Source: Geoglobus acetivorans (GTDB taxonomy: Archaea; Halobacteriota; Archaeoglobi; Archaeoglobales; Archaeoglobaceae). From it: a stretch of DNA of 64,000 nucleotides. The notes beneath the pieces were generated by a model. That model was not told where the DNA came from. It worked only from the letters and a program-made list of their open reading frames with translations, and ran no database searches. The position numbers and the translations under genes are program-made. Each line of letters starts with the position of its first letter. The stretch's first letter is position 1. The stretch spans positions 1,488,001-1,552,000 of the forward strand of contig NZ_CP009552.1 of the NCBI RefSeq assembly GCF_000789255.1, written 5' to 3'. This document shows positions 26,990-49,171 of this stretch, piece by piece.

Positions 26990-27850
26990 TTAAATTAGTC
27001 CGGCTCTCTGGAGAAGCAGAATATCTTCGGTCTCCAGTTTTTCTCCTCTCTTGAACATCTCGTAGATCTCCTTCGCTTTTCTGATCAGTTCCTCTTTCTC
27101 TCTCTGCTCCTTACTCTTGCTCTGCTTGGCCTTCAGCGCCTTGATAATCTTGTCAAGGTCCTTTATGTCCTTCCTGGTTTTGATTATCTCAGCATGATAC
27201 CTGTCTGCCTCTTTCCTCGCCTCAACCGCTTTTGCATGGTATTCGTCGGCCTTCTTCCGAGTTTCATCGACGTTCTTCAGAAGCTCAACGATCTGCTCAT
27301 GCACGCCATCTGCCTGCTCCTGATAACCCTTAATCTGCTCCGTTAGACTTCTGACCTCTTCTTTCAGCTTCTTTATCTCTGCTATGAGCTTCTTGAACTC
27401 CTCGTGCTTCTCAAGCTGTGTTTTTCTCTCCTCAAGTTCCCTCTTGAGCTTCGCAATCCTCTCAACAAGCTGTCTTTCTTTTTCAATCGTAAGAACGGCA
27501 GTCTGCTGCTTGAACTCAAGTCTCCGTATCTCCTTCTCTATCTCCCCAAGTGGCCTTCCTCCTCGGTCTATGTTCCTCCTGAGCTTGTCAAGGTCCTTGT
27601 AAAGGGCATCTATCTTCTTGTGAAGTTCGCTTCTCTCCGCTCTAAGCTCCTTTGCTTTCGAATTTAGCTCATCTCTGGACTTTTTCAGCTCTCTGACCTT
27701 GTTCAGCAGTTCCTTTACCTGCGCATTCAGTTCATTTCTCTTTTCAGCCAGCTTCTTGGACTCCTCGTTCAGCTCGTCCCTCTTCCTGATAAAATCCTTA
27801 AGATCCTTCTCCAGCTGTTCTCTCCTCTCAACCAACTTCTCCAGCATCAT
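26990..27850 (-). CDS. archaeal long coiled-coil protein (COG1340-like)
   Basis: A 286-residue protein made almost wholly of Glu/Lys/Arg-rich heptads, with long alpha-helical stretches (KLAEKRNELNAQVKELLNKV, EIKKLKEEVRSLTEQIKG). The short non-coiled C-terminus ends in ILLLQRAGLI. No ATPase head domain is present, so it is not an SMC or Rad50. It resembles the uncharacterised archaeal COG1340 family, usually single-copy and probably structural. Confidence 0.72.
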   Translation of the reverse strand: MMLEKLVERREQLEKDLKDFIRKRDELNEESKKLAEKRNELNAQVKELLNKVRELKKSRDELNSKAKELRAERSELHKKIDALYKDLDKLRRNIDRGGRPLGEIEKEIRRLEFKQQTAVLTIEKERQLVERIAKLKRELEERKTQLEKHEEFKKLIAEIKKLKEEVRSLTEQIKGYQEQADGVHEQIVELLKNVDETRKKADEYHAKAVEARKEADRYHAEIIKTRKDIKDLDKIIKALKAKQSKSKEQREKEELIRKAKEIYEMFKRGEKLETEDILLLQRAGLI

Positions 27851-30487: not shown

Positions 30488-30506
30488 ACCTCTTAATGAG
30501 AGGTAT
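30486..30506. promoter_or_regulatory. perfect inverted repeat at the padR start (likely operator)
   Basis: ATACCTCT-TAATG-AGAGGTAT: 8-base arms, 5-base spacer. It covers the padR start codon and lies about 10 bases downstream of the minus-strand TATA-like TTTTATAC (30516-30523), at the expected transcription start. A protein bound here would block padR-sdpI transcription, as PadR proteins commonly do for their own genes. It may also influence the divergent CcmC-like gene at 30643. Confidence 0.65.
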
Positions 30507-30642
30507 CGAAGCTCGATGTATAAAAGCATTGCGAAGCGTGACAATGGATGTTTCAGCGGCAACATTCCGTTCCAGAAGTCGTCAGTCCAGCGCGATCTTG
30601 CCTGCTGGGAAACATTTTAAAGCCCGAAAAAAGACTGTTTGC

Positions 30643-31191
30643 ATGCGTTACGTGACTCTAACAGTGCTGCTCGTCATCTCAGCTGTCCTCATCGCGGCCC
30701 TCCCTTCAGAAAGCAGGCTCGGTGAAACGTACAAGCTCGTCTACATTCACGTCCCGATTTCTCTGGTCACGATAGCCACCACCCTCCTGCTTCCGCTCGT
30801 CCACCTCAGATTGCCGGGGTTCGTAAAGGGTGTTTCGCTCACAACCACAGCATATGCGGCAGTTCACCTCATTCTCTCCGCAGTCTTCATGTACGCAGCG
30901 TGGGGAGGAATAATCTTCTCCGAGCCCAAGTTCGTTTTCAGTCTCGTTCTGCTGTTCTTCACAGCGACTCACACAGCCCTGTGCCTTGTGGATTTGAGAC
31001 TCGCCAGATACTACTCCCTCCTTGCAATTGTGATTGTTCCGTACTTCTACTTTCAGGCGGCCTCGGCGGGCTTTCAGCTCCACCCAAAGGGCGTAGAAAT
31101 GCCGGCCTTTCTGTACCTTCCGTACACTCTCACATTCCCGCTGGTCGCACTCACGTACATCACGCTGGCCGGAAAACTGCAGAAGCTCTGA
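30643..31191 (+). CDS. CcmC-like heme-handling membrane protein
   Basis: A 182-residue protein with six hydrophobic helices. The motif YKLVYIHVPISLV after the first helix and WGGIIFSEPKFVFSLVLLFF in the middle align with CcmC (YVHVP and the WWD-type loop WG.WWxWD.R). The Trp/Asp residues of the heme-binding loop are mostly lost here. With so many c-type cytochromes nearby, a role in heme delivery is likely, but the altered loop means it may be a divergent or accessory member. ATG 30643 follows a TATA-like CATTTTAAAG. Confidence 0.62.
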   Translation: MRYVTLTVLLVISAVLIAALPSESRLGETYKLVYIHVPISLVTIATTLLLPLVHLRLPGFVKGVSLTTTAYAAVHLILSAVFMYAAWGGIIFSEPKFVFSLVLLFFTATHTALCLVDLRLARYYSLLAIVIVPYFYFQAASAGFQLHPKGVEMPAFLYLPYTLTFPLVALTYITLAGKLQKL

Positions 31192-33778: not shown

Positions 33779-34957
33779 TCACACCCTCCCTCCATTGTAA
33801 TACACAAGGTTGTTCGGTTCAGAGTATGAAACAAATGGGCCGGTGGGTGGTGTTGGCGCCCCCGCTCTCTTGCAGGATATGCAGCTATCAGCGTGCAGAA
33901 TGAGCGGAGCATTGAAAATGCCCACATCTAAGTTGCCCATGATATTGGGGGGCCATGGTGCAGCTACGTACCCTCCAGAAGTCTTGTCGAAGACAGAAAC
34001 GGAGTAGCTGTCAGTATGGCAGGAGTAGCATGACAGTCTTCTCGCCACATGAACAGCATCTGTCAGCTCTGGAGGCAGGGTTCCCGAAACCTGCGGATTG
34101 TGACAGGACGAAAGGCAGTAATCGGAAATGTTTGCATAGGCTGTTCCAATTTTGCTTATATCGTGTATCGGAGCCTGAGGGTTATTACTCCTGCCACCCC
34201 AGTACCAGATGACGTGGGATGAATTGGGAGTTAGGCCATTAGGGCTCGGTTCCGGATGGTTTATTGCATTCCAGATGTCAGCATGGCAATCAGTGCAGTT
34301 TATCGAACTCAACGGCCTCCAGATGTGCTTCGCTCCAGAGCCACCCTTAAAAACCACAGTCGTGTTCGCTGGGCCCAGCGAATTCACAACCACTGACGTC
34401 CACGACTGAAAGGTGAAGTTATAGTACTGCGGCCTGACAAACTCAATATTCAGCTTGAAATCTGTGTGACACGCCAAGCATGCTTCGTTCTCACCAACAC
34501 CAAGGCTGAAGTTGAGGGCGTCCTGAACGAATTTCTTGTGGGCTGAGTAATCAGTCCCGTAGTTTGGGTCTCCAAACGCATTTGCCTTTGGGACTGAAAC
34601 GGTGGTTCCGTTTGCAAGGGTTATGCTGGTTTTTGAGTGGCAGTCAAGGCAGCGGGGCTTTACTGCAGCGTGTGCTTCACCTCCCGAAACCCATGTGCCG
34701 TTGTCGTAAGCTACGGTCTGGCCGAGGTAGGGGTTGCGGTGGCAGTCCTCACATGTCATGCCGGAATGGTAGGTTGAGTTGCTGAGCTCGGCTGCGATTT
34801 TTGAATGGCATTGAGTGCATGGGATGTCGTTTGAAGGAGAGGAGATGTCCTTGACATTGTGGGTTTGAAGAAGAACTGAGTAGGTGGAGTTGGGAAGGGT
34901 GTATAGGAAAATGGCAACAAGCGATATTATTACGAATACGAGAAATCTGAGGTTCAC
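33779..34957 (-). CDS. secreted multiheme cytochrome c with CxxCK and CX3CH motifs
   Basis: A 392-residue protein with an N-terminal hydrophobic segment (FLVFVIISLVAIFLYTL) and no obvious C-terminal anchor. Six CxxCH motifs (CTQCH, CEDCH, CLDCH, CLACH, CTDCH, CYSCH), one CX3CH (CLSSCH) and one CxxCK (CISCK, about residue 360). CxxCK recalls the lysine-ligated catalytic heme of NrfA. The N-terminal 157 residues are encoded by DNA identical to the gene at 35750-37078. GTG start one base past the upstream stop, with GAGGTGA before it. Confidence 0.82.
   Translation of the reverse strand: MNLRFLVFVIISLVAIFLYTLPNSTYSVLLQTHNVKDISSPSNDIPCTQCHSKIAAELSNSTYHSGMTCEDCHRNPYLGQTVAYDNGTWVSGGEAHAAVKPRCLDCHSKTSITLANGTTVSVPKANAFGDPNYGTDYSAHKKFVQDALNFSLGVGENEACLACHTDFKLNIEFVRPQYYNFTFQSWTSVVVNSLGPANTTVVFKGGSGAKHIWRPLSSINCTDCHADIWNAINHPEPSPNGLTPNSSHVIWYWGGRSNNPQAPIHDISKIGTAYANISDYCLSSCHNPQVSGTLPPELTDAVHVARRLSCYSCHTDSYSVSVFDKTSGGYVAAPWPPNIMGNLDVGIFNAPLILHADSCISCKRAGAPTPPTGPFVSYSEPNNLVYYNGGRV
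34440..34912 (-). repeat. 473-bp perfect direct repeat, copy 1
   Basis: Every base from 34440 to 34912 matches 36558-37030 by my line-by-line comparison. It encodes residues of the shared N-terminal tetraheme module (CTQCH, CEDCH, CLDCH, CLACH) of two neighbouring cytochromes. The flanks diverge abruptly on both sides, so a recent gene conversion is more likely than slow divergence. Confidence 0.9.
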
Positions 34958-34958
34958 C

Positions 34959-35693
34959 TCACTTCACCTCGGTATAAACGATAAAGTCAGTAGGAGAAAT
35001 GTCAGACACGCTCCATTCCGAGGTATTCCCAACGATATTGTTCGAGACGGTTAATGAAAACCCGGTATATGTCGTAATATTGAACTTTACCCCCACATCT
35101 GTGTGGCAGAAGATACAGGCTTCACTCTCCCCAGGATAGACGTTGGCTTCAAAAGCAGTTCCGAAGATTAGTTCAAAATGTGTCGAATTCAAACCGGAGT
35201 CGTCAGGATGGTTGCTCAATCCAAAGCCACCTGCCGCCCCGTAACTGGACAGAGCAGGATTGGAGTTATGACACCTGCAGCCAGCTGTATCATAACCAAG
35301 CACTTTGCTCAGGTTTCCATGAACTGCGTAGTGCATGTTCGTGGTGTTGAAATGACAGTAAGTGCAATCTGCCCTCGTTGCCGCATGTGCCTCAAGACCG
35401 GGCTGATTTGCTGAGCCGTTAGCATACGTTACACTTGCATTCCCCCTGTGACAGGCCTCACAGTCCTTTGTATCTGCTATCGTCGGATCGCCCCATTTTT
35501 TGTGGAGTGGCGAGAGCTGAAGCTCTTCATAAATGTCCGCATGGCATTTTTTACAGTCTACGTCAGAAGTCGGATTTGCATCCAGATAATACCATTCATG
35601 TATACCTGCAAATAGAGATACTGTCTTGGGAAGCACGAATACTCCCACCATCACGGTGGTCACAAGGATCAGTGCAAGCCTCGAAGGTCTCAT
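34959..35693 (-). CDS. secreted tetra-/pentaheme cytochrome c
   Basis: A 244-residue protein with an N-terminal membrane anchor or signal (LALILVTTVMVGVFVLP). Four CxxCH motifs (CKKCH, CEACH, CTYCH, CIFCH) plus a CxCH (CRCH) after YDTAG that may not bind heme. It is a clear relative of the gene at 37105-37821: KTVSLFAGIHEWYYLDA matches PTVSLFVGQHDWYDIDA. First gene of the operon cytochrome-cytochrome-lipoprotein-surface protein. Confidence 0.82.
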   Translation of the reverse strand: MRPSRLALILVTTVMVGVFVLPKTVSLFAGIHEWYYLDANPTSDVDCKKCHADIYEELQLSPLHKKWGDPTIADTKDCEACHRGNASVTYANGSANQPGLEAHAATRADCTYCHFNTTNMHYAVHGNLSKVLGYDTAGCRCHNSNPALSSYGAAGGFGLSNHPDDSGLNSTHFELIFGTAFEANVYPGESEACIFCHTDVGVKFNITTYTGFSLTVSNNIVGNTSEWSVSDISPTDFIVYTEVK

Positions 35694-35749: not shown

Positions 35750-37078
35750 CTACCTGACCACTGCACCACTCGGCTCCGACTCGATCACAACACTCAGAGA
35801 ATATCCACTTCCAGTATTTATGTAGCTCCGGTGACAGGGGCCGCACGAACTCCCGCCTCCAGCATTATGGCATGGGCCACATCCCATCCCCATCGTGCCA
35901 GTGTGGTCCGCAGCCTCGTGGCACCCCATGCACATGTCACCGTTGAACGTGTTGGCGTACAGACCTATCACGTCAGATATTTTCCTGTGATCCGCGCTAA
36001 TGTTTAGAGCTGAATAGCTCGCGCTGTATCCGCTGTACCTCATAACCGGAGAAGGGTCCTTCGTTTTTCCTGAACCGTGGCAGGTTACACACTTTATCCT
36101 TTCTGCAGCATGAACGAAATTCGAGTTCGTGTCCGAGACAACGGCAGAGAGACCATATGTTGATGCAGCAGATGGATTGATGGCAGCATACCTCGCAACG
36201 TTGTGGCATTCGTAGCAGTAGGTGGAGTTCACCCAAGTAGCTCTGTAAGCATCCGGCACATAGTGGTACCTCAGATTTCCCCAGTAATTGTTGGTCTCCC
36301 AGTTGTAGCTTATGGAGTCATCAATCTCGATTGGTGCGTGAGTATACTGCGTGTATGGCGAACCTGGGGTTCCATTAATAAGAGCGTCGTAGATGTTTTT
36401 GTGGCACGAAGTGCAGTCTATCGAACTCAAGGGTTTCCATATATGTTTTGAGCCGTTCCCAGTCAGAGAGATCTGATAAGTTCTTGTTCCATTAACATTA
36501 AAGTTCGTTATACTCCAGTCGAAGCTCTTGGTGTAGCTGATGTTCCAGAAATACCTGAACTCAATATTCAGCTTGAAATCTGTGTGACACGCCAAGCATG
36601 CTTCGTTCTCACCAACACCAAGGCTGAAGTTGAGGGCGTCCTGAACGAATTTCTTGTGGGCTGAGTAATCAGTCCCGTAGTTTGGGTCTCCAAACGCATT
36701 TGCCTTTGGGACTGAAACGGTGGTTCCGTTTGCAAGGGTTATGCTGGTTTTTGAGTGGCAGTCAAGGCAGCGGGGCTTTACTGCAGCGTGTGCTTCACCT
36801 CCCGAAACCCATGTGCCGTTGTCGTAAGCTACGGTCTGGCCGAGGTAGGGGTTGCGGTGGCAGTCCTCACATGTCATGCCGGAATGGTAGGTTGAGTTGC
36901 TGAGCTCGGCTGCGATTTTTGAATGGCATTGAGTGCATGGGATGTCGTTTGAAGGAGAGGAGATGTCCTTGACATTGTGGGTTTGAAGAAGAACTGAGTA
37001 GGTGGAGTTGGGAAGGGTGTATAGGAAAATTGAGACGAGAACGATTACCAGAAGATAATACCTCAGTTGCATTAACAA
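35750..37078 (-). CDS. secreted decaheme cytochrome c
   Basis: A 442-residue protein with an N-terminal hydrophobic segment (LLVIVLVSIFLYTLP). Ten CxxCH motifs by my count: CTQCH, CEDCH, CLDCH, CLACH, CTSCH, CYECH, CVTCH, CMGCH, CGPCH and CGPCH. The first four lie in the module that is identical at DNA level to the 33779-34957 gene; the remainder is unrelated in detail. It follows the tetraheme gene at 37105-37821 by 26 bases, repeating the two-gene order seen in the downstream operon. Confidence 0.85.
   Translation of the reverse strand: MLMQLRYYLLVIVLVSIFLYTLPNSTYSVLLQTHNVKDISSPSNDIPCTQCHSKIAAELSNSTYHSGMTCEDCHRNPYLGQTVAYDNGTWVSGGEAHAAVKPRCLDCHSKTSITLANGTTVSVPKANAFGDPNYGTDYSAHKKFVQDALNFSLGVGENEACLACHTDFKLNIEFRYFWNISYTKSFDWSITNFNVNGTRTYQISLTGNGSKHIWKPLSSIDCTSCHKNIYDALINGTPGSPYTQYTHAPIEIDDSISYNWETNNYWGNLRYHYVPDAYRATWVNSTYCYECHNVARYAAINPSAASTYGLSAVVSDTNSNFVHAAERIKCVTCHGSGKTKDPSPVMRYSGYSASYSALNISADHRKISDVIGLYANTFNGDMCMGCHEAADHTGTMGMGCGPCHNAGGGSSCGPCHRSYINTGSGYSLSVVIESEPSGAVVR
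36558..37030 (-). repeat. 473-bp perfect direct repeat, copy 2
   Basis: Identical to 34440-34912 with an offset of 2118 bases. It covers almost all of the shared N-terminal module, but not the signal peptide start or the C-terminal heme region. Confidence 0.9.
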
Positions 37079-37104: not shown

Positions 37105-37821
37105 TTACTGCCCTGGCCAGTTGGCCGAACCAGGATAGGTGTTCACCCAGCCCTGACCGGTAGCGTTGCCCCAGATGACGTTTGTCACGGCGGTGGATGT
37201 ATTAATTGTATAGTTACTTGTCGCATACTGCTGAAGCAGAGTGTCCCAGTTAACATCGAACTCCATTGCACCGTAGTGAGTGAAGTTAATTTTAACTGCA
37301 ACATGAGTATGGCATGCAATACAGGCTTCGTTCTCCGCAAGGAGTACATCACTGCTCAGATCGGCAGAACTGACGAAGTCGGAGTGTGCTGCAAGCGATC
37401 CCGTATCATTGGCCAATCCAGTTATACCAAATCCTCCGGCTGCTGGTGCACCACCAACCTGCTTCTGATCATGGCAGTACATGCACTCTACCGTAGAGGC
37501 TGCATGAGCACCCCATTCCAGAGTAGCATCAGTCGGACCATTTGCAGTTCCACTGGCATACGCTATGCTTGTGTTTGCCTGGTGGCATCCCCTGCAGTCG
37601 TCCTCATCAGCAACTCCTGGAGTGCCCCAGCCCTTGTGATACGGGCTGTTGTTCAGCTCCTCATACACATCAGCATGACATTTCTGACAGGGTATCTGGT
37701 TGCCCGTTGCGTCAATATCGTACCAGTCATGCTGACCAACAAACAGCGATACTGTAGGAGGAAGCACTAAAACACCTACCGCAAGGAGCACGATCGCACC
37801 TAATATCAACCTACCATTCAT
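37105..37821 (-). CDS. secreted tetraheme cytochrome c
   Basis: A 238-residue protein with an N-terminal hydrophobic segment (LILGAIVLLAVGVLVLP) and four CxxCH motifs (CQKCH, CRGCH, CMYCH, CIACH). It is a paralogue of the 34959-35693 protein. CTTTATAAAATC on the minus strand near 37850-37862 is the promoter. It heads a two-cytochrome operon with the decaheme gene. The membrane-near hydrophobic N-terminus could act as an anchor, making it a candidate entry point for electrons. Confidence 0.82.
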   Translation of the reverse strand: MNGRLILGAIVLLAVGVLVLPPTVSLFVGQHDWYDIDATGNQIPCQKCHADVYEELNNSPYHKGWGTPGVADEDDCRGCHQANTSIAYASGTANGPTDATLEWGAHAASTVECMYCHDQKQVGGAPAAGGFGITGLANDTGSLAAHSDFVSSADLSSDVLLAENEACIACHTHVAVKINFTHYGAMEFDVNWDTLLQQYATSNYTINTSTAVTNVIWGNATGQGWVNTYPGSANWPGQ

Positions 37822-37928: not shown

Positions 37929-40900
37929 TCAGTACACTGCCACCTCATCGAACAGCACGTGGTTTGCACCCTCGCTGAAGAGCTTGATCTGCAGGTACTG
38001 CTTGCCTGCGGGCATTTTGCCCGAGGTTATCACACCGAGCCATCCGCTGGTGACACTGTCTACATAGACTCTGTACGTCTCAGGAGTGCCTGCGTTGTCT
38101 CCAACGTCCTTGTAGGACCTGTACACGAACTGTATTCCTGCCCTGCCGTTCATGCTGTCTGAATAGATCTTGAACTGTGCCGTGAAGGTCTTGCCCTCGG
38201 CGAGGTTTATTGCGTAGTACTGCTGGTAGTACCTGTAGAGAGTTCCGAAGCTCGTGTCTGCGTATGGTGTGGTCCAGTATCCTGAACCATAGATGCCTGC
38301 AGACCTCTTTCCGATTGCAACAGTGGTGTTCACGTCAAGGCCGTTGCTGGCAATTCCCTTCGGCTCCCAGGCCTTTATGGGCTCGTATGGTTTTTGCTTG
38401 TACTCAGCACTTCTGAAGTACCTGTCAGGTCTTCCCGTGCCCCAGTCGCTGTCAAATCCTCCGTTGACCACGTAGTTCGTGGTGACGGGTGGGGTTATGA
38501 TAACACTGACGTCGTCAAAGTAGGCGGTGGTGTTGCTGGCGTAGAGCCTTATGCTGAAGTTGGTAGCGCTGCTGCTTGCCGTGATCTCAACTCCCAGCAG
38601 CACCCAGTCCGAGGTGTGGCCCTCCAGCTTCACCACTGGCGTTTCGGAGATGACGGTGTTGCCGTTCCACTGGACGAGGCTGATTCCCGCATAGCCTCCG
38701 TCTGCAGGTTTCTTAACGTAGACCGTTACCTGGTATGATGCACCCGGTGTCACCTGGAACCTGGCTGACTCCAGGTAGCCTGCAGTGGCTGATGCGAGAC
38801 CTGCAGATGCGCTGCCGGACTTTGGAGCTGACTGGGTGACTGCTGCCGAAACGTTGGTCCAGCTGACGGGGGTGCTGCTGACCGTCCAGCTCTCGAATCC
38901 GAAGTTGTATGCTGTTGGGGACGGGACGACACCTCCCTTCGAGAGCGTGAATGTTGTGAATGTCGTTGCACTCTTTCCTGTGTCCTTCTCTCCGGTCACG
39001 TATATCCTGTACTCTCCAGGCTCAAAACCGGTTGTGTCAATGCTGAACGTGAACTTCTCGTATCCAAAGCCCCTGCTGTCAACACCGCCGAACCTGCCGT
39101 CGTCAGGGGTAAGCTGTCCCTGCTCAACCACAACGCCATTGTGCACGAGTCTGTAGGTGGCGTTGTAGATCTGGACGTTATATCCGATTACCTCTGCAGT
39201 TATGGTTATCGTGTCTCCAACGTATGCGTAGGACTTGGATGCTGAGACGGTCACTATTGGCGGTGAGAGGTATGGAACGGTAACCGTGTCATGTATCTGT
39301 CCGTTTCCGTGGCAGTTGCCTCCTCCGCATGAGGTGTACATCGTGGCCATGTATGTGCCTATGCCCGGAGCGTGGAACGGCTCGTCCCTCTTGCTGTGGG
39401 TGTAGTGGCAGTCGCTGCACTTGACAAACGTTCCCGTCCACCCTGGCCAGCCGGGCTCCTTTACCGCTCCGTAAGGTGTTGAGTAGTTCCAGTGGTAGTA
39501 TCTGCCCTCCGCATATCCTCCTGCAACGTGGCAGGACTTGCAGTCGTTGTTGCCGTGCTGGAAGGTGGTGAGCCTGACGTCTGAAGGCACGTTTACCGGG
39601 GTGCCGTTGAGGTGGCAGTCCTGGCAGCTGTAGGTTGCGACACTCCAGCCCGGATCGAACATCTTGCTCGTGTCGTAGTGGCAGGTTGTACAGTCCGCAT
39701 CCGTCAGATTGCCAGTTCCATCTGTTGTGTTGACGTTGACGTGTCTGCCATAGCTTGAAACGTTTATTCCAATGCTTCCGGTGTAGCTCTCGTGGCAGGC
39801 AATGCACCCTCCTCCAGTCCCTTCGCTGACAGCGTGCACAAAGTCCTTGAGAGTTGTTGCAGACTGAGCAACACCACCATGACACTGCTTGCACACGCTG
39901 TCTGTGAAGCTTGACGAGAGGAATCCAGAGTGATCAACCCATGTTGTGCCGTCATTTGCTGTGCCTTCATCAACATCTATGCGTGGAGGAACTGGATTCA
40001 GCTGATTGCCCTTGTAGTCAGGAGAGCTCTGGTAGTGGCAGTTGGCACACCAGGTGCCTGAGAGGTCTTTTGCCCCATCTGCAATTAGTGTAACGTTGCC
40101 CAGCAACCCTGTCCTGTCCTTGTGGATTCCGCTCTGGTGGCAGTAGTAGCACGCCTCAATATCTGAGGTCCAGTAAGTACCCCACTTCTGTCCAGCAATA
40201 GGATCATTGCTGTGGTTGAGCTTCGGAATTGCAGGAATGGTGTAACCCCATGCTGTGAGGCTCGCAGATGTGTTCTGATTCTCATGACAGTCCACACAGT
40301 TGGCAGCATTGGTCTTGTCCCACATTGTGTATGTGCCGTCCGAACTGATGAACTTGATGCCATGTATCTGGGCCGTGACGGTATCATATGTCTCATCCTT
40401 CGGATCCATGTGGCACGAGTAGCAGTTCATCGTGCTGTTGTGTGCAGTTGGAATAGGTTTCGCACTGCCAATACCACTCTGATGGCATCCGAGACACAGG
40501 CCATTGCTTATCTGGGGTTTGACGTGCGTCTGGTCATGAATCCTTCCCGCACTGTGGCAGTTCCAGCACTTGGGCGAGTTGGGGCTGTCGGTGTGGTCAT
40601 ACATGTAGCTGTGGTTTGGATTCCGCATCACGTTCTTGAAGGTCGTCGTGGTGTTCTGGTGGCAGTAGTAACAGTCGGTCAGCACGTCACCGTTTATGTT
40701 CAGAACAAGGTCCGTTCTCTTCTTGCCATAGTGGCTTATCGTCGCGTTAACACTGCCGGCATCCGGATCGCTGTTGGCGTTGAGCATCTCGCCCTTGCTG
40801 TGGCAGTCCTGGCATGTGGCCTGCACAACAAGGTCTTCTCCAGCGTAGTAGTGTTCAGCCACAAGCGGAGCGCTGAACTGAGTTGTGCCGGTGTGGCAGT

Positions 40901-43379
40901 CTTCACACTTCTTCGGATTCTTGTAGCTGGCTGGATGTTCGGTAGGCTCTGTTCCGTCTCCGTGGCAGGCCCAGCATGCCTTGTCTATGGTATCCGTGAG
41001 CTTTGTCGTGTTCGCTGCATTGCTGTTCAGGTTTGCGTGGATGCTCTGCTTCATCGCCGAAACGTCAACGTGTTTCGGTGCGAATCCGCCAACATCGTGG
41101 CAGCTAACACAGTCTGGGCCACCGTTCGTGCCCTCGTCCACCTGGTGAATGAATTCACCAACAGTCGACGCGCTCTGCGCGGCTCCACCGTGACAGGACT
41201 TACAGAGACTGTCAGAGTCTCCATTTGCTATCAGACTGCCGTGGTCGAACCACTTCGAGCCCGCACTGTTAACCGCCTTTCCGGTGTTATTTACATCTAT
41301 GAACGGCGGCTCTTTCGGAAGCTCGTTACCATACTTTGTGGAAACGTGGCACTGGGCACACCAGTTTCCGCTGAGGTCTTTTGCTCCGTCCAAGTTGGCC
41401 ACAGTGCCAAGGGCGCTGGAAGTGTGAACAGCGTTAACGTTCGTACCGCCACTGGCGTGGCAGAAGAGGCACGCGGAATTGTCATCGCCTTTTGTCCAGT
41501 AGCTGCCCCAGTTCTGTCCCTCCCACGTTGCGTTTCCATGCTGGAAGGCTTTGTCGCCGATGTATGGCGGATTCATAGTGTACGTTCCAGTTCTCGTTGT
41601 GTACGTCCTTCCTGCAGCATTCGGATTTGCATGACAGTCCGTACACTTCACAGCGTTCGCCTTGCTCGTGGTGTAGGTCTGAAGGTCTGACGACAGGAAC
41701 CTTGGCCCTCCATGTGGTGACGGGGAGTGACAGACCTCACAGGGCACGGCGTTGTTGTGCTTAGCATCGACCTGCGGTGGGTTATAACCCTTGGCCTGCA
41801 CAACTGATTTCACAGCATCATTGACTCCGGGCACGTGGCAGTCCTCACAGCTCACGGCCTGAGTTTTGTCTGTTGAGTATGTTCCTGAATGAGTGAGGAA
41901 CTTTACGGTGTGGAAGTCGGTCGCGTCATGACAGACATTGCAGTTCACAACGCTGTTGTGCTTGGCTATGGTGTAGCCGAAGCTATCAGTTTGCGGCTGG
42001 TAGTTGTTGGTGTAAGCACTGGAATCGTAGCTGGTCAGGCTGTTGAAGAAGTTGGATATCGCTCCGGGGGAGTGGCAGGATTCACAGTCGGCCTTGGTTA
42101 CGGCGTTAGCCGAGCCAAGAGTCGTGTAGGTTGGCTGGGTCGCTGCTGTTTTGTCGAGGATGCCTATTCTGTGAGCATCCTGGGAGTGGCATGCAGTACA
42201 GTAGACTGGGTTGTCCGGGGAGTGTTTGCCCTGGTTGGTGTGGCAGGTGAGGCACTGCTCGTCTTCGGTGTATGAGTTGGAGGTTCCAGAGACAGCCGGT
42301 TTAGACAGGTCGTGGGCTGGCCCGTGGCAGCTCAGACACGGGATTGTCTGAGGAGATGTGTGAGCTTTGCTGGGCTGGCCGGTGTTGACGTCATAGGAGT
42401 AAATCGTTCTGTATGTGCCACCAACGCTGTAGCCAGTTGTGGTGTCAATTGCGGTGAGCTTGGTGTTCTTCTGGGCGTGACAGCCAGGTGTGTCGTAACA
42501 CCCGGCGATTTCTGGGGCAGGATAATTCTTATTTTTATCGAAGTTTCCAAGCTTCCAGAATCCTTTCTTAGAGTCCCAATTCAAATTGTTTGTAGACACA
42601 CCAAGATCGGCGTTGACGTGGCAACTAACGCAGTCTTTGTTATGAATATCTGATGCTTTCGCAGCCTTTGTCGAGTCGTAGGACCAGCCATTTCTGGCGT
42701 AACCATAATCACCCCGAACATGTATCTTGTCGTAGCCATTGTGGCACGCAGTACACTCTCCCGCAACTATCGCTCCAGCGTGTTCGCTCTTCTTAGGTTT
42801 CTGATGGAATTTGTAGCCCATTGAATATGGAGATTTTGGAGTGTAGGCGCTGTAACTGCCCGGAGTACCCCATTCACCAGCATCGCCGTGACATCTCGCA
42901 CAGCCCCACCAGTTGTACATGAATGTGGCTGTTGCTTGTAGATTCTGACCGTTTACCGTCGCAGTAGCCTCAACAGTCCAGTATCCGTAGTAATTCATCC
43001 CATTAAGATTGTAGCTGAAAGACGCCACGCCAGAACTATCCGTGCTGGATTGTATTGACGTAACTGCCGTCCCATCCGGCTTTCTGATTGTAAAAGTCAC
43101 TGTTACTCCGCCAATACCCCCATCTTTATCCATGACTATCGCATAACCCTTGATCGTTGTCGATTCACCACTCCAGTAGTCGTTACCCCAACTTTGTGGC
43201 GGATTGCTGAATCCATTCGCAGTGTCTGCCTGCCCGCTCTTCGGATCATCGAGCACCACAAGCCTCGAAAGGTTCAGTTTGAGAACTGGTTGTGCCGCTG
43301 CACTTCCTGTAATCGCTATTACAATCGCTATCGCTAAGAGCATCATCAGGATCGGTTTCGTTTTTATTTTCGACCTCAC
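37929..43379 (-). CDS. giant extracellular multiheme cytochrome c (31 or more hemes)
   Basis: A 1816-residue secreted protein. Signal peptide at residues 12-29 (MMLLAIAIVIAITGSAAA). An Ig-like (Big_1-type) domain spans about 60-150. The heme region runs from about 158 to 1350 with 31 CxxCH by my count, plus CX5CH (CYDTPGCH) and CX4CH (CGGGNCH). Then come an Ig-like domain (PPIVTVSASKSYAYVGDTI) and two carbohydrate-binding-like beta-sandwich modules to the C-terminus. No PGF-CTERM or TM end, so it is released or bound through its beta domains. GTG start with TAGGAGGGG before it. Probably carries electrons across or beyond the S-layer. Confidence 0.9.
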   Translation of the reverse strand: MRSKIKTKPILMMLLAIAIVIAITGSAAAQPVLKLNLSRLVVLDDPKSGQADTANGFSNPPQSWGNDYWSGESTTIKGYAIVMDKDGGIGGVTVTFTIRKPDGTAVTSIQSSTDSSGVASFSYNLNGMNYYGYWTVEATATVNGQNLQATATFMYNWWGCARCHGDAGEWGTPGSYSAYTPKSPYSMGYKFHQKPKKSEHAGAIVAGECTACHNGYDKIHVRGDYGYARNGWSYDSTKAAKASDIHNKDCVSCHVNADLGVSTNNLNWDSKKGFWKLGNFDKNKNYPAPEIAGCYDTPGCHAQKNTKLTAIDTTTGYSVGGTYRTIYSYDVNTGQPSKAHTSPQTIPCLSCHGPAHDLSKPAVSGTSNSYTEDEQCLTCHTNQGKHSPDNPVYCTACHSQDAHRIGILDKTAATQPTYTTLGSANAVTKADCESCHSPGAISNFFNSLTSYDSSAYTNNYQPQTDSFGYTIAKHNSVVNCNVCHDATDFHTVKFLTHSGTYSTDKTQAVSCEDCHVPGVNDAVKSVVQAKGYNPPQVDAKHNNAVPCEVCHSPSPHGGPRFLSSDLQTYTTSKANAVKCTDCHANPNAAGRTYTTRTGTYTMNPPYIGDKAFQHGNATWEGQNWGSYWTKGDDNSACLFCHASGGTNVNAVHTSSALGTVANLDGAKDLSGNWCAQCHVSTKYGNELPKEPPFIDVNNTGKAVNSAGSKWFDHGSLIANGDSDSLCKSCHGGAAQSASTVGEFIHQVDEGTNGGPDCVSCHDVGGFAPKHVDVSAMKQSIHANLNSNAANTTKLTDTIDKACWACHGDGTEPTEHPASYKNPKKCEDCHTGTTQFSAPLVAEHYYAGEDLVVQATCQDCHSKGEMLNANSDPDAGSVNATISHYGKKRTDLVLNINGDVLTDCYYCHQNTTTTFKNVMRNPNHSYMYDHTDSPNSPKCWNCHSAGRIHDQTHVKPQISNGLCLGCHQSGIGSAKPIPTAHNSTMNCYSCHMDPKDETYDTVTAQIHGIKFISSDGTYTMWDKTNAANCVDCHENQNTSASLTAWGYTIPAIPKLNHSNDPIAGQKWGTYWTSDIEACYYCHQSGIHKDRTGLLGNVTLIADGAKDLSGTWCANCHYQSSPDYKGNQLNPVPPRIDVDEGTANDGTTWVDHSGFLSSSFTDSVCKQCHGGVAQSATTLKDFVHAVSEGTGGGCIACHESYTGSIGINVSSYGRHVNVNTTDGTGNLTDADCTTCHYDTSKMFDPGWSVATYSCQDCHLNGTPVNVPSDVRLTTFQHGNNDCKSCHVAGGYAEGRYYHWNYSTPYGAVKEPGWPGWTGTFVKCSDCHYTHSKRDEPFHAPGIGTYMATMYTSCGGGNCHGNGQIHDTVTVPYLSPPIVTVSASKSYAYVGDTITITAEVIGYNVQIYNATYRLVHNGVVVEQGQLTPDDGRFGGVDSRGFGYEKFTFSIDTTGFEPGEYRIYVTGEKDTGKSATTFTTFTLSKGGVVPSPTAYNFGFESWTVSSTPVSWTNVSAAVTQSAPKSGSASAGLASATAGYLESARFQVTPGASYQVTVYVKKPADGGYAGISLVQWNGNTVISETPVVKLEGHTSDWVLLGVEITASSSATNFSIRLYASNTTAYFDDVSVIITPPVTTNYVVNGGFDSDWGTGRPDRYFRSAEYKQKPYEPIKAWEPKGIASNGLDVNTTVAIGKRSAGIYGSGYWTTPYADTSFGTLYRYYQQYYAINLAEGKTFTAQFKIYSDSMNGRAGIQFVYRSYKDVGDNAGTPETYRVYVDSVTSGWLGVITSGKMPAGKQYLQIKLFSEGANHVLFDEVAVY
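39785..40352 (-). repeat. internal duplication in giant cytochrome, second unit
   Basis: Encodes about residues 1009-1198. It matches residues 559-761 in heme spacing and in wording: FISSDGTYT, GQKWGTYWTSD, GAKDLSGTWCANCH, VCKQCHGGVAQSAT and GGGCIACHES. The match is at protein level, so it is older than the 473-bp repeat. Confidence 0.7.
41096..41702 (-). repeat. internal duplication in giant cytochrome, first unit
   Basis: Encodes about residues 559-761 with FLSSDLQTYT, GQNWGSYWTKG, GAKDLSGNWCAQCH, LCKSCHGGAAQSAS and GGPDCVSCHD. It pairs with 39785-40352. Boundaries are approximate. Confidence 0.7.
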
Positions 43380-43702: not shown

Positions 43703-44926
43703 ATGAAATTGAAGTTGAATATCCTGATATTTATTACCTTAATACTGATTTTGTCCGGAATAGCATCGGCGAATTTTACCGGGCCAATAAAAATAGGAAA
43801 AGGCAGATATCCGACGATCGCACAGGATGAGAATGGCATGTACTGGCTCGTTTTCAACAACGAGAGCGGTATTTACATGATGAACTCTTCAGACCTGGCA
43901 AACTGGAGCTTGCCGGAAAAACTGCCATTTTCACAGCCAGATGACTACGATGCATACCTGAGAATCTACGACGGAAAGTTCTACATAGCATTCACTCGCC
44001 ACAAGCTTGTCAATCCCCACTCTCTGTTCGGCTTCGACTATGATGTTTACCTGGCCATAGGCGATGGTAAAAACTGGAAGCTCGTGCCGATAAACACGAG
44101 CAACTCGAGCGTCGACTGGTACCCCTACATCTACCGCGATCCGTTCGGCAAGTTCTGGCTGGTGTACAGCAAGGACTACAAGGACGGAAATGGTTCGACG
44201 ATAGTTGTGAGGTATTCTGACGATGCTGTCAACTGGAGCAGGGAGTATCCGGCAATACCCCCGAGCTCTCTTTTCGGCAGCATGTTCTACTTCAAAGACC
44301 GCTACTGGATGGTTTACGCACTCTACACAGGCAATTACACCATACCGGAAATCATGAACCTCCACGACCTGTACATCGCCTACAGCTTCGACGGAATAAA
44401 CTGGGTCAGGGCTGCAAAGCTGACGAACACCCCTCCGCCCTACAACTTCACCCTCTACGTCGATGCTGAGACTGACGGTAAGAACATCTGGGTGTCCTAC
44501 ACATCCACGATCGAGGGAAACGAGGAAGTTTACATCTTCGGCTCTCCTGATGGCTTTAACTGGAGCGAGCCAGTGAGGTTGAGCAGGAACATAGAATATA
44601 TCCGCAGTCTCGAAAACCCCTACAACTTCAAGTGCGATCAAAAAGACCTGCTGATAGATGAGAAGGGAAAAGCGATCGTAGTATACCAGTCCGCCATATT
44701 CCCAAACGCCACGACACTCTGGATCGTCTACGGGAAACCTGTGACCATGAAAGGGTTCTCAAAGGCAGAATACAACATAACTCTGCCATACAGATACAGT
44801 TCAGAGAAAAATCCAACATCTGAAAAAGAAAATTCCAAAAAAACGCCCCTTGGTGCCATACTACCACTTATAGCATTGGGATCTGCGCTGCTGACCGCAA
44901 GAATTGCAAAAAAGAAGAATGGATGA
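43703..44926 (+). CDS. surface beta-propeller (sialidase/GH43-like) protein
   Basis: A 407-residue protein with a signal peptide (ILIFITLILILSGIASA). Propeller-like repeats recur about every 50-60 residues: PTIAQDENGMYWLVFNN, YLRIYDGKFYIAFTR, PYIYRDPFGKFWLVYS, MFYFKDRYWMVYAL and DGKNIWVSYTS. D-G-x-N-W loops (DGINWVRA, DGFNWSEP) recall BNR/Asp-box and GH43 families. A C-terminal helix with IAKKKNG anchors it. I cannot confirm enzymatic residues; it may bind or trim surface glycans. Confidence 0.6.
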   Translation: MKLKLNILIFITLILILSGIASANFTGPIKIGKGRYPTIAQDENGMYWLVFNNESGIYMMNSSDLANWSLPEKLPFSQPDDYDAYLRIYDGKFYIAFTRHKLVNPHSLFGFDYDVYLAIGDGKNWKLVPINTSNSSVDWYPYIYRDPFGKFWLVYSKDYKDGNGSTIVVRYSDDAVNWSREYPAIPPSSLFGSMFYFKDRYWMVYALYTGNYTIPEIMNLHDLYIAYSFDGINWVRAAKLTNTPPPYNFTLYVDAETDGKNIWVSYTSTIEGNEEVYIFGSPDGFNWSEPVRLSRNIEYIRSLENPYNFKCDQKDLLIDEKGKAIVVYQSAIFPNATTLWIVYGKPVTMKGFSKAEYNITLPYRYSSEKNPTSEKENSKKTPLGAILPLIALGSALLTARIAKKKNG

Positions 44927-44965: not shown

Positions 44966-45739
44966 ATGAAGTCCTCAGATAATCTCATAACACTTATAGC
45001 ATTCATAATTGGCATTTCCGTACTTGCACTGTCCCTTTACTCATTTTACACAGATTACAGCATGGGCAGGCCCGCCATAAATCTGGCAATAGACGTGATC
45101 TTTCTAATGTTTTCAGCAGTGCTCGTAGGTGGATCACTCAATCTCAGAAAAAGGTTGAAGGGATATGAAGTATCGGTCAATGCTGCATTCAACGAGGTCG
45201 TGTACAGCAGACTCAAACCGATCATGGAGGAGGTTGCGCTGGGCATAGTTGAGATGAACAGAGTATCAAAGAAAATCGAAAACCTTGAAAGAAAAATCTC
45301 TGCAATAGAAGAGCTTGCAACAACTCAGAAGCTGACTCCAGAAGAGAGAATAAACTTTTACTTTAAAGCAGTTGTAGTTATGGTGTTTTATATAGGACTT
45401 TTTATGTACATGACCCAGTACACGCTGCCTTACAACTACATCCTCTCCGCCCTCCTGTTCATTATCTGGTGGGGATTCATAACCTTCGAATTCCAGATAT
45501 TCGATAAGGGCGAGGCGCTCGTGATGCTCATTGCCCCGGTTCTCATAATCCCCTCACTATATACACTTACCAGAACACTTGCTGGCATTTCAATCGCTCA
45601 AGGAATGGTTTTCATCGCATCCGCATTTTATGCATATTACTACTACATAGTGGCAAAGGGAATCACCGGAACGGGCAATAAAGGGCTCAAAGACATGCTT
45701 GGAGAGTTCAGATCAAAAATTACAAGGAGGCAGGGTTAG
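44966..45739 (+). CDS. membrane protein with internal coiled coil
   Basis: Not recognised. 257 residues: two N-terminal helices (about 7-30 and 37-58), a cytoplasmic coiled coil of about 70 residues (MNRVSKKIENLERKISAIEE) and five C-terminal helices. A TATA-like CTTTTAAATTTACTC precedes it at 44935-44949. The 3' end overlaps the convergent signal peptidase gene by 4 bases. Confidence 0.55.
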   Translation: MKSSDNLITLIAFIIGISVLALSLYSFYTDYSMGRPAINLAIDVIFLMFSAVLVGGSLNLRKRLKGYEVSVNAAFNEVVYSRLKPIMEEVALGIVEMNRVSKKIENLERKISAIEELATTQKLTPEERINFYFKAVVVMVFYIGLFMYMTQYTLPYNYILSALLFIIWWGFITFEFQIFDKGEALVMLIAPVLIIPSLYTLTRTLAGISIAQGMVFIASAFYAYYYYIVAKGITGTGNKGLKDMLGEFRSKITRRQG

Positions 45740-46416
45740 CGCAATTCTCTGAGCAGTGAGTAGATGTATGCGGAGATCCCAATCACAACCACGGAAAGGG
45801 CATACTGCCGAAGGACATCCAGCATTTTCTTGTAGAACAAATATTCCTGCCCGTATGGCCCAATATCCCTAAGCTCCTTAGCATCGAGAATGAAGTAATT
45901 CCCCACACCCTTGACGACAATCGGTTTCCCGAAAACAAGGACAGCCTTACCAATTATATCACTCTTACTGATGGGGTTTGGGTCAGGTCCAGAGGCGTCG
46001 CCACCAGTATACACTTTATCACCCACAACCTTCAGAACCCGATGAGTAACAGAATAACCTACATCCTCTCTCACGAACATTATTATGTCTCCCTTTTCCG
46101 GCTCCTTGAAAATGGTCTGAACCAGGACAATATCTCCTCTCTCAAAAGTGGGATACATGCTGTTTGTAACTACTGCAGCGAAAAAAATCTTCATTGTAAT
46201 GCCAAGGTAGACTATCACAAGGAAAACAGCAAATTCTGCAACAGCCATCGCTATTGTGGCATTTCTACTCCTGCTACTATTCTCCAAAAGCTCGTGAATG
46301 TGCTTTCTCGTTCTTACCAGACTAATTTTTCTCCCAATTCCTTCACGATGGTTGTAAGCAAAGAATGCGGTGGCGAGAGCGCCTGCAATCAGCAGCTCAA
46401 TCATTGCAACCACCAT
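45736..46416 (-). CDS. signal peptidase I, archaeal Sec11 type
   Basis: 226 residues with a hydrophobic N-terminus, an anchor helix (AVFLVIVYLGITM), catalytic Ser86 in VTNSMYPTF, RGDIVLVQ, His126 in VTHRVLKVVGD, and Asp140 in YTGGDA: the Ser-His-Asp arrangement of archaeal/ER peptidases rather than the Ser-Lys of bacteria. The protein also has a C-terminal membrane helix. It overlaps the small upstream gene by 16 bases and so belongs to a three-gene operon with a CARDB-type surface protein. Confidence 0.88.
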   Translation of the reverse strand: MVVAMIELLIAGALATAFFAYNHREGIGRKISLVRTRKHIHELLENSSRSRNATIAMAVAEFAVFLVIVYLGITMKIFFAAVVTNSMYPTFERGDIVLVQTIFKEPEKGDIIMFVREDVGYSVTHRVLKVVGDKVYTGGDASGPDPNPISKSDIIGKAVLVFGKPIVVKGVGNYFILDAKELRDIGPYGQEYLFYKKMLDVLRQYALSVVVIGISAYIYSLLRELR

Positions 46417-46661
46417 ACAATGTAAAGCAGCAGATTTAATGTGATGTACAGAATTACCACATCTATCAGCAAATTCAGTGCATTTCTCCCTATTTCAATC
46501 CCTCTCGCCCCGTTTTCCGCCCTGATGCTGCCATCCCCATAAAACTTCAGAACAGCATTAACAAGTTCCAAAGGTAGTTTTGTCTCTGCAGATATTTTCT
46601 CAGGGTCTTTGATCCCCCGTTCAAGCTCCCTCAATACCAGGATTTCGTATTCAGACCTCAT
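46401..46661 (-). CDS. small protein: helix-turn-helix-like domain plus membrane helix
   Basis: 86 residues. Residues 1-50 look like a compact winged-helix start (EYEILVLRELERG, PEKISAETKLPLELVNAVL). Residues 60-84 form a strong membrane helix (LLIDVVILYITLNLLLYIVWW). A membrane-tethered DNA-binding protein or a small scaffold are both possible. Not recognised as a named family. Overlaps both neighbours (4 and 16 bases). Confidence 0.55.
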   Translation of the reverse strand: MRSEYEILVLRELERGIKDPEKISAETKLPLELVNAVLKFYGDGSIRAENGARGIEIGRNALNLLIDVVILYITLNLLLYIVWWLQ

Positions 46662-48484
46662 CTTCTCAGGTAGAACCTAAGAACTATAAGCACCGCCAAG
46701 ACTCCTACCAGTATTGTTACCGTGCCTGCATCCTTTCTGCCATTCTCACCGTTTTCCACTGCAGGAGTAGGTGTGGGCGATGCACTGGTTACGTTTTTCG
46801 CAAAAAAGACCTTTGATATACTGGAGTCATCAAGAAGCACTTTATAAGATCCCTCCTGTTTCGGGATATACTCAAACTCCACGTGCTTTTTCTCGTTCTG
46901 ATAGATGTTAACGGTCTCATTGTAAGCAACAATACCATTTATCTTGACCACAATCTCTGCCGTCCCTGTCCCACCCTCATTTTTAACGTCAAAGGATACC
47001 TTCACCGGCTGACCAACATCAACTATGAAATCACTGACCGACAGGTTCGAGTACTTCAGCTCCGGCGGAAGCTTCAGTTCAGTTTTCAATCTTATCGAGA
47101 CAGTTTTGTTGATAGATGAAAAGTCATAGAAAGAGGTCAGCAGGTCCGGAGCCTCTCTCAACCCATACTTCCTTTTTAAACCCGCATCGCTGAAGTAATA
47201 GTTGGTTACGTCCAGAACCACCTTTCCGCCCCTCTTCAAATAATCGCTGAAGGCAGTCATTTCCGGTTTATCAGTAACGTAGAACACGATGTCCGCCTTA
47301 TCCAGCTCGTAATCTTCCACAACACCAACATACGATACTGGCGCTTTATTCAACTGTCTGATATATTCAAGAAGGTCCGGAAGAATCTTCTCTGCCCTCT
47401 CATCGCTCTTGTAATAAAGCGCCACCTTCATTTCATCGCTGTAGTTTCCGTTCTTCCACAGATAAGCAAGAACGTTCGTGAGCATTTTTGCAGCATTATC
47501 TCTATTCATATCGTAGGCTTTTTCAAAATCGAAGTCTCTTGCCTTATTGTCCATCCCGCTTACACCAACGCTACCGAGAACGTAGTTGTTGGCCGAGAGT
47601 ACAAGAGTCCCATTACCCACTTTTCCGATCTTCAGGGGCTTGTTAAACAGATATGGCTGGACATAGACCGGCAGAACCTGCAATCCAGCTACTTTGCTCC
47701 ATCCCGCAGAAATTTCGAGTTTGTGATCACCAATGTCAAGTTGAGGAACGCTGAACTCCACCCTGGTAGATTCATAAGGTCCAAGCTCCACTTTTTTCTT
47801 TGAAAAATACTCACCATCAATCAAAAGCCTCAAGTAAAAGGACACTTTTTTGTTACCTGCGTTAAACACAGATACCTGAAGCGTATTATTCATACCTTCC
47901 GGCAAAATTGCAGCTTTTAAATTCGAATCAAATAAGTAGACCGTGCTTTTGACTTCATCAACCACATTAAACCTGATCTCTTTTTTGAGGTAATCCACAT
48001 CATTTCTCTTCTCAGTATAAACAAACAAACTTGCATCACTGCCATTGATCAGTCTTTCAAGGAAGCTTTTATACTCTTGTTCTGTTGCAGTTGTATTCAG
48101 AACATCGAAAACATAAACCACCGCTCTGTACTCGCCAGTCTTCCAGCTCTCCGGTATGTTTATATCAAAAACAGTGAAAATGCTGTTGGTCCAATCAAGA
48201 CCGGACTTTCTTATCACCTTCCCTGCCACCGGATAACCATCGGGATCGTATACAACCACCAGAAAGTCCACGGCATACGCTCTGAAGTGATTGATATCCG
48301 AGGCCTGAACGTATATCTTCGCAGTTTCCCCTTTTTCATAAGGAATTTTTCTTTCGATAAACTTACCATAGCCATCAACGTGGTCAACCAGTTTAATAGC
48401 AAAATTGTCTATCGCTAAAGTTGGACTCACCATGAACAGAAAAATAAGACATGCCAGGCAGACAATTCTCCCCCTCACATACAT
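46658..48484 (-). CDS. large secreted protein with CARDB-like domains and C-terminal TM
   Basis: About 608 residues: signal peptide (LACLIFLFMVSPTLA), several beta-sandwich segments (NNTLQVSVFNAGNKKVSFYL; VDVGQPVKVSFDVKNEGGTG, a CARDB hallmark), a middle alpha/beta part (residues about 310-450) resembling a glutamine-amidotransferase-like/DUF4350 fold (DIVFYVTDKP, LKRGGKVVLDVTNYYF), and a C-terminal helix ending RFYLRR. ATG 48484 is preferred over 48526, which lies in the divergent promoter. Possibly a surface assembly or adhesion protein. Confidence 0.6.
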   Translation of the reverse strand: MYVRGRIVCLACLIFLFMVSPTLAIDNFAIKLVDHVDGYGKFIERKIPYEKGETAKIYVQASDINHFRAYAVDFLVVVYDPDGYPVAGKVIRKSGLDWTNSIFTVFDINIPESWKTGEYRAVVYVFDVLNTTATEQEYKSFLERLINGSDASLFVYTEKRNDVDYLKKEIRFNVVDEVKSTVYLFDSNLKAAILPEGMNNTLQVSVFNAGNKKVSFYLRLLIDGEYFSKKKVELGPYESTRVEFSVPQLDIGDHKLEISAGWSKVAGLQVLPVYVQPYLFNKPLKIGKVGNGTLVLSANNYVLGSVGVSGMDNKARDFDFEKAYDMNRDNAAKMLTNVLAYLWKNGNYSDEMKVALYYKSDERAEKILPDLLEYIRQLNKAPVSYVGVVEDYELDKADIVFYVTDKPEMTAFSDYLKRGGKVVLDVTNYYFSDAGLKRKYGLREAPDLLTSFYDFSSINKTVSIRLKTELKLPPELKYSNLSVSDFIVDVGQPVKVSFDVKNEGGTGTAEIVVKINGIVAYNETVNIYQNEKKHVEFEYIPKQEGSYKVLLDDSSISKVFFAKNVTSASPTPTPAVENGENGRKDAGTVTILVGVLAVLIVLRFYLRR

Positions 48485-48529
48485 GCATAGAACAAAAGAA
48501 ATAAATAATTTACCAGAGAACCACAAACT
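48485..48529. promoter_or_regulatory. divergent promoter, CARDB protein / hexaheme cytochrome
   Basis: AAATAAATAATTTA at 48500-48513 is TATA-like in both directions. It lies about 16 bases from each start, so both messages would be nearly leaderless. This links expression of the hexaheme cytochrome with the surface protein/signal peptidase operon. Confidence 0.45.
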
Positions 48530-49171
48530 GTGAAAAAAGTTGCGTTGCTCTCGGCAGCGATCCTTATACTGACAATAATGTTCGCATCTCTCACGCAGGC
48601 ATCAGAAGTAAACAACCCTCTGTACAAACAATACGAAGGTTTTTTTGCTCCCTGGCATAAAGCAAAGATTTGCATGCCCTGCCACATAAACACTCTGTCG
48701 GGAGAAGAGCTCGAGAAGTTTCTGAGGTGCACACCATGCCATAACAGAGAAGTGGACCTAAAAGACCAGAACCAGCTCCTCAAACTGCATGGGGCGACAG
48801 TCTGCATAAAATGTCACGTTGGAAGCAATTATGACATTAACAACATTGGATTGAAAGTCCACGTACCCCACATGAAGGTCTCATGCGATAATTGCCACGG
48901 AACCGATGGAGCCATATCCAAACCAGACAGAAACAAATGCACTGATTGCCATGGTTCAAATCCCCACAGTGTTCACAGCAGAGTTCTTGATGATATCTGC
49001 TTTGACTGTCACTCGGAATACATGAAGGACTACCTGCCAAAAATAAACAAAAAAGAACTGGAAAGCGTAGGGCTGCAGGTGACTCCAACCCCAGAAAGAC
49101 CCCAGGAAGCCCAAGTATCCTTCAAGAGCCTTTCGGACTTTATCTTGTGGATAGTCGATCTCCTGTTCTGA
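48530..49171 (+). CDS. secreted hexaheme cytochrome c
   Basis: 213 residues with a signal peptide (VALLSAAILILTIMFASLTQA), six CxxCH motifs (CMPCH, CTPCH, CIKCH, CDNCH, CTDCH, CFDCH) and a hydrophobic C-terminal tail (SDFILWIVDLLF) that could anchor it. The heme region (VPHMKVSCDNCHGTD, SNPHSVHS) resembles NapC/NrfH-adjacent or class III cytochromes, with extra His for bis-His ligation. GTG start. Confidence 0.82.
   Translation: MKKVALLSAAILILTIMFASLTQASEVNNPLYKQYEGFFAPWHKAKICMPCHINTLSGEELEKFLRCTPCHNREVDLKDQNQLLKLHGATVCIKCHVGSNYDINNIGLKVHVPHMKVSCDNCHGTDGAISKPDRNKCTDCHGSNPHSVHSRVLDDICFDCHSEYMKDYLPKINKKELESVGLQVTPTPERPQEAQVSFKSLSDFILWIVDLLF

Follow-up and report, generated by a model that had tools for sequence, protein, structure and literature searches.

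Results

The window analysed here, 64,000 nucleotides of the chromosome of Geoglobus acetivorans, an iron-respiring archaeon of hot vents (contig NZ_CP009552.1, positions 1,488,001 to 1,552,000; coordinates below are those of the window), contains a gene for a giant multiheme cytochrome, which stands beside a divergently transcribed beta-propeller gene in an island of electron-transfer genes (Table 1). A preliminary description of this DNA had reported a continuous 1816-residue frame at this place, and its coordinates proved exact: the minus strand is uninterrupted, while the plus strand contains many stops. The start codon is GTG, preceded by the ribosome site GGAGGGG, and the chain opens with a signal peptide that is probably cleaved. 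According to hydropathy this is the sole hydrophobic segment of the protein; there is no C-terminal transmembrane (TM) helix, and once the signal peptide is cut the giant cytochrome has no TM anchor.

The earlier tally was 31 CxxCH motifs plus one CX5CH and one CX4CH, 33 in total; our count agrees and places the CX5CH at residue 294 and the CX4CH at residue 1351. All 66 cysteines of the protein fall within these motifs, and shuffled heme-region sequences gave a mean of 0.2 CxxCH and a maximum of 3 in 2000 trials. Successive motifs are 18–58 residues apart, so no heme-free domain breaks the array; the earlier picture of a dense, uninterrupted array in an exported multiheme electron-transfer protein was borne out, many CxxCH-type motifs lying in one chain that is predicted from its sequence to be exported. 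In the ortholog from JdFR-42 (an Archaeoglobi metagenome-assembled genome (MAG); 61% identity) all 33 motifs aligned, and in two more distant relatives 30–31 did, the neighbouring sites 547 and 579 being deleted there along with nearby histidines. At the position of the CX5CH motif relatives have CX3CH or CxxCH, which makes it very probable that this is a true heme site. Conservation of the motifs, including both irregular ones, supports a complement of 33 hemes, and the 38 non-motif histidines between residues 150 and 1370, mostly conserved, are sufficient for bis-His ligation of them all. A block of about 220 residues is present twice within the heme region, and the array therefore appears to have grown at least partly by internal duplication. 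A phmmer comparison of the giant with PDB chains returned weak, heme-driven matches only.

Both ends of the protein carry the modules previously ascribed to them. The N-terminal domain is MG2/Ig-like, with a Pfam E-value of 1.4e-6 that is below the cut-off here and of 1.3e-8, over the cut-off, in an ortholog. An AlphaFold2 model of residues 1360–1816 (mean predicted local distance difference test (pLDDT) 71, predicted template modelling score (pTM) 0.61) shows an Ig-like sandwich followed by two jelly rolls, whose best Foldseek matches were largely proteins bearing carbohydrate-binding modules (CBMs), including GH101; the match to the tandem CBM22 structure 4xup had an E-value of ~1e-9. The low TM-scores of these matches may reflect differing domain arrangement. 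A CBM_4_9 Pfam match was seen in a paralog of the giant, below the cut-off (E 1.3e-4). The tail is thus predicted to have the jelly-roll/beta-sandwich fold of CBM4/9/22-type modules, and 'lectin-like', the term first applied to it, is a fair one for such a fold; the tail may bind glycans. Within the Archaeoglobi, this triple tail of Ig domain and two jelly rolls is confined to these giant cytochromes.

The gene divergently upstream encodes a propeller with four Asp boxes, and its distribution follows that of the giant closely. Of 59 Archaeoglobi genomes, six have giant homologs, and the propeller is present in each of those six and in no other; a seventh giant match was weak (E 3.6e-4) and covered part of the heme region only, in a 533-residue frame. 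The chance of such a coincidence would be 2e-8 if the genomes were independent, which they are not, though four genera and two families are represented. The propeller adjoins the giant in all six carriers, and the identity pattern of the one tracks that of the other (r 0.78). Relatives of the giant are present in Ferroglobus-type genomes and in Methanoperedens, and the propeller also adjoins giants in two unclassified archaeal MAGs, in METP1 and in four Methanoperedens contigs. A fusion of the two in Methanoperedens, considered because of overlapping coordinates, was rejected, as these are separate adjacent genes. In Geoglobus ahangari (G026) the island is otherwise conserved and both giant and propeller are missing, 232 bp lying instead between the tetraheme and six-TM genes (locus L103, 11325-11557). 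Given this joint presence, adjacency and joint absence, giant and propeller behave as a cassette. No description of the pairing was found in a literature search of partial coverage, which included a search on a propeller/multiheme link in Methanoperedens.

The giant is almost certainly the product of GACE_1847, since both the order of the cytochrome clusters and its place in a row of five genes agree with the published clusters. Cytochrome genes lie at 78-81, 1112-1129 and 1522-1531 kb in the genome, an order that matches gace_0099-0102, gace_1341-1344/1360-1361 and gace_1843-1847 as listed by Mardanov et al. (2015, cited in PMC4683180); the giant is the last in a run of five same-strand cytochrome genes and stands beside a tetraheme gene, which fits gace_1843-1847 with its 4-heme 1846. 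In the passages of the literature that treat GACE_1847, the protein is proposed to be membrane-anchored, crossing the pseudoperiplasm and S-layer and touching hematite (Mardanov et al., 2015, cited in PMC4683180), with 16 CxxCH (PMC4683180) or 22 hemes (PMC8446621) and with C-terminal hematite motifs (PMC4683180, PMC8446621), whereas we find 33 motifs, a probably cleaved signal peptide and a CBM-like tail. If translation were taken to begin internally, at Met776, exactly 16 CxxCH would remain; the lower of the published counts may have arisen in this way.

Genes for four cytochromes (4, 10, 4 and 6 hemes, in this order), 1–107 bases apart, lie directly downstream of the giant in the same orientation. 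Beyond the propeller lie the six-TM protein, the signal peptidase, the CARDB-type protein and a further hexaheme cytochrome, all of them conserved in several relatives.

Table 1. Features of the giant cytochrome and of the surrounding electron-transfer island (TM, transmembrane)
Feature	Position	Strand	Basis
Giant multiheme cytochrome gene (GACE_1847 by chromosomal order)	37929..43379	minus	1816 aa, 31 CxxCH + CX4CH + CX5CH
Signal peptide of giant, residues 1-29, ending GSAAA before Q	43293..43379	minus	sequence and hydropathy
N-terminal MG2/Ig-like domain, residues 71-146	42942..43169	minus	Pfam, below cut-off here, above in ortholog
Heme region, residues 160-1357, 33 motifs, mean spacing ~37 residues	39309..42902	minus	motif count
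CX5CH heme site CYDTPGCH (very probable), residues 294-301	42477..42500	minus	alignment with relatives
CX4CH heme site CGGGNCH, residues 1351-1357	39309..39329	minus	kept in all four orthologs
Internal duplication copy 1, residues ~612-829	40893..41546	minus	38% identity to copy 2, E 5e-42
Internal duplication copy 2, residues ~1054-1256	39612..40220	minus	matches copy 1
C-terminal Ig-like domain, residues ~1375-1480	38940..39257	minus	AlphaFold2 model
Jelly-roll/CBM-like module 1, residues ~1490-1628	38496..38912	minus	AlphaFold2, Foldseek, Pfam in paralog
Jelly-roll/CBM-like module 2, residues ~1641-1816	37932..38459	minus	AlphaFold2, Foldseek
Secreted Asp-box (BNR) beta-propeller, one C-terminal TM helix, basic tail	43703..44926	plus	divergent from giant, co-occurring
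Tetraheme cytochrome, homolog of A. veneficus filament subunit PDB 8e5g	37105..37821	minus	E 3.4e-43
Decaheme cytochrome, N-terminal part resembling 8e5g	35750..37078	minus	motif count, similarity
Tetraheme cytochrome, filament-subunit-like	34959..35693	minus	motif count, similarity
Hexaheme cytochrome	33779..34957	minus	motif count
Six-TM membrane protein, kept in island	44966..45739	plus	comparison with relatives, hydropathy
Type I signal peptidase, island-encoded	45736..46416	minus	TIGR02228 over cut-off
CARDB/MG2-type surface protein, C-terminal TM	46658..48526	minus	domain search, hydropathy
Hexaheme cytochrome with signal peptide	48530..49171	plus	motif count, comparison
Membrane protein weakly similar to cytochrome c assembly proteins, in island	30496..31191	plus	E 4.8e-4, below cut-off

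Discussion

We consider it probable that the giant is a secreted 33-heme cytochrome of an extracellular-electron-transfer island of Geoglobus and Ferroglobus, docked by the propeller and passing electrons outward through the S-layer. Since the protein has a signal peptide and a signal peptidase gene lies in the same island, it would be exported by this route and then loaded with heme in the pseudoperiplasm. It has no TM anchor of its own after cleavage, so docking to the membrane-anchored propeller would keep it at the cell surface. Its hemes would take electrons from small membrane-associated cytochromes and carry them outward through the S-layer; the presumed acceptors are the filament-type tetraheme cytochromes from the downstream genes and, in the end, Fe(III) oxides. 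The Ig and jelly-roll tail would position or attach the outer end, and glycans of the surface or the S-layer would be its probable target, not hematite bound through a peptide. A role in surface electron transfer is very likely, and the number of hemes makes it plausible that a single molecule is long enough to span the S-layer. Direct-contact Fe(III) reduction has been documented in these species (PMC8280799).

The part assigned to the propeller is a more tentative proposal. It could be a dedicated anchor or assembly factor for giant archaeal cytochromes without S-layer domains, forming with them a two-gene cassette that is gained or lost as a unit in Archaeoglobi and is shared with Methanoperedens; if this is true, the propeller would explain how giants of this kind stay in the envelope with no S-layer domain fused to them.

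Several observations weigh against outward transfer by a propeller-docked giant. A Pfam scan of the giant found no recognised S-layer domain. The propeller was not recognisable in the genomes with more distant giants (G081, G100, G110, G210 and G250), and it therefore marks one class of giants. G. ahangari, an obligate Fe(III) respirer that reduces Fe(III) oxide (PMC4600277), has neither giant nor propeller and no cytochrome above 12 hemes; in this genus, Fe(III)-oxide respiration thus does not depend on the pair. Finally, the AlphaFold2 model of the heme region, built with 12 sequences, was of too low confidence to judge heme spacing (pLDDT 36, pTM 0.29).

The giant might instead be a surface electron store, or capacitor, and terminal reductase outside the S-layer, its CBM-like tail fixing it to the outer face while filament cytochromes make the crossing. 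We regard this as rather unlikely. It agrees with a protein that has neither a TM anchor after the signal peptide nor a recognised S-layer domain, and with the distribution of filament-type tetraheme cytochromes, which occur in 24 of the 59 Archaeoglobi genomes, in 18 of them (G. ahangari included) in the absence of a giant, and so can work without one. Yet the C-terminal TM helix of the propeller, in the cytoplasmic membrane, would bring one or both ends of the giant close to that membrane if the two are bound.

Placing the giant as an electron-transfer scaffold or store in the pseudoperiplasm, inside the S-layer boundary, is in our view improbable. Arshad et al. argue for such a location for Methanoperedens homologs without the C-terminal part (PMC4683180), but the Geoglobus and Ferroglobus forms bear the additional jelly-roll tail restricted, among Archaeoglobi, to these giants. 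Little probability attaches also to direct binding of Fe(III) oxide by the tail via hematite-binding peptides, the prediction made for GACE_1847 in the relevant parts of the published accounts (PMC4683180, PMC8446621), the stated motif [ST][AVILMFYW][ST]P[ST] being absent from the giant and from all Archaeoglobi relatives tested.

Among known systems, the MHC giants of anaerobic methanotrophic archaea (ANME) are, like the G. acetivorans protein, exported long heme chains in archaea that respire outside the cell. Their MHC-A, MHC-B and MHC-C types are treated by Chadwick 2022 and reportedly also by McGlynn 2015. ANME giants carry 20-86 hemes, and 'similarly large' cytochromes have been noted in Geoglobus and Ferroglobus (Chadwick, 2022; PMC9012536); one Methanoperedens cytochrome has 113 hemes (PMC7327174). 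With MHC-C our giant shares a carbohydrate-type module and the lack of an S-layer domain (PMC9012536), although it has no pectin-lyase domain. Unlike MHC-A and MHC-B, it has neither an S-layer domain (DUF1608; Pfam) nor a C-terminal TM helix, and its MG2/Ig-like N-terminus and C-terminal Ig and jelly rolls distinguish it from the ANME types. The giants of Methanoperedens (BLZ2, nitroreducens and FeB_1) have a homologous heme region of ~27-33% identity, an MG2/Ig-like N-terminus and the same propeller adjoining; however, BLZ2, the only one examined whose C-terminus is intact, ends in a carboxypeptidase-regulatory-like module, and in Methanoperedens the propeller lies upstream of the giant on the same strand, whereas in G. 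acetivorans it is divergent.

The filament subunit 8e5g of Archaeoglobus veneficus is a polymerising tetraheme protein, whereas the giant is one chain with no sequence match to it; the 8e5g homologs here are the tetraheme (37105-37821) and decaheme (35750-37078) cytochromes directly downstream. As for the outer-membrane decaheme cytochromes MtrC/OmcA/MtrF, the heme region gives 11 matches to Pfam PF22113 (MtrC/MtrF domains II/IV), and by analogy the giant may work as an extracellular terminal cytochrome of this kind, although those proteins have 10 hemes against 33 and the host of the giant has no outer membrane. No MtrA/MtrB partners were seen among the island genes scanned.

Neither the protein nor its basic interpretation is new, and the suggestion in the preliminary description that one molecule is long enough to span the S-layer is itself the published speculation for GACE_1847 (PMC4683180). 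To the sections of the published account concerned with this protein, our analysis adds the heme number of 33, the CBM-like tail, the propeller cassette, the filament-subunit homologs downstream and the exchange of the island described below; heme number and tail of the published cytochrome appear to have been misdescribed. The propeller, the filament-subunit homologs and the dispensability of the giant in G. ahangari go beyond the preliminary description. For the question of how electrons pass through the protein coat in archaea without an outer membrane, the propeller offers a concrete, testable partner of the giant. The island of G. ahangari, in which the pair is missing, is a natural experiment, and comparison of the species can separate the role of the giant from that of the filament cytochromes.

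The island itself looks to have been replaced as a block in one lineage, by exchange between close relatives, because its flanks in genome G025 (loci L024 and L025) are 89-99% identical to those in the window (PheS 93%, 26990-27850 99%) while the G025 island genes diverge from window 26564-50646 (~30-59% identity) and resemble those of the Ferroglobus-type genome G023 (loci L022 and L023; 50-82%). Each of these two clusters holds three giants, with 37, 31 and 24 motifs in G023 and 25, 31 and 25 in G025, interleaved with filament-type tetraheme genes and one propeller; two G025 tetrahemes that were tested are clearly different from 8e5g. A longer chain was seen in G110, a 1.0 Mb genome from the same phylum, where a 3851-residue open frame at a contig end (locus L102, 1722-13274) has 85 heme motifs in blocks homologous to the giant; the propeller was not found in the G110 genome.

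Among the neighbouring genes, the hexaheme and decaheme cytochromes at 33779-34957 and 35750-37078 have in common a stretch of 473 bases that is 100% identical (34440-34912 and 36558-37030), which points to gene conversion or duplication in the very recent past. The membrane protein at 30496-31191 may be the counterpart of the heme-handling '8x TMH' protein noted by Chadwick et al. in ANME, Geoglobus and Ferroglobus (PMC9012536). Outside the island, 21511-22848 encodes an octaheme cytochrome that belongs to the 'seven times multi-haem' family and has a hydrophobic segment at each terminus, and an MreB/archaeal actin-like gene (19255-20256) adjoins two small multiheme genes (20317-20796 and 20793-21386).
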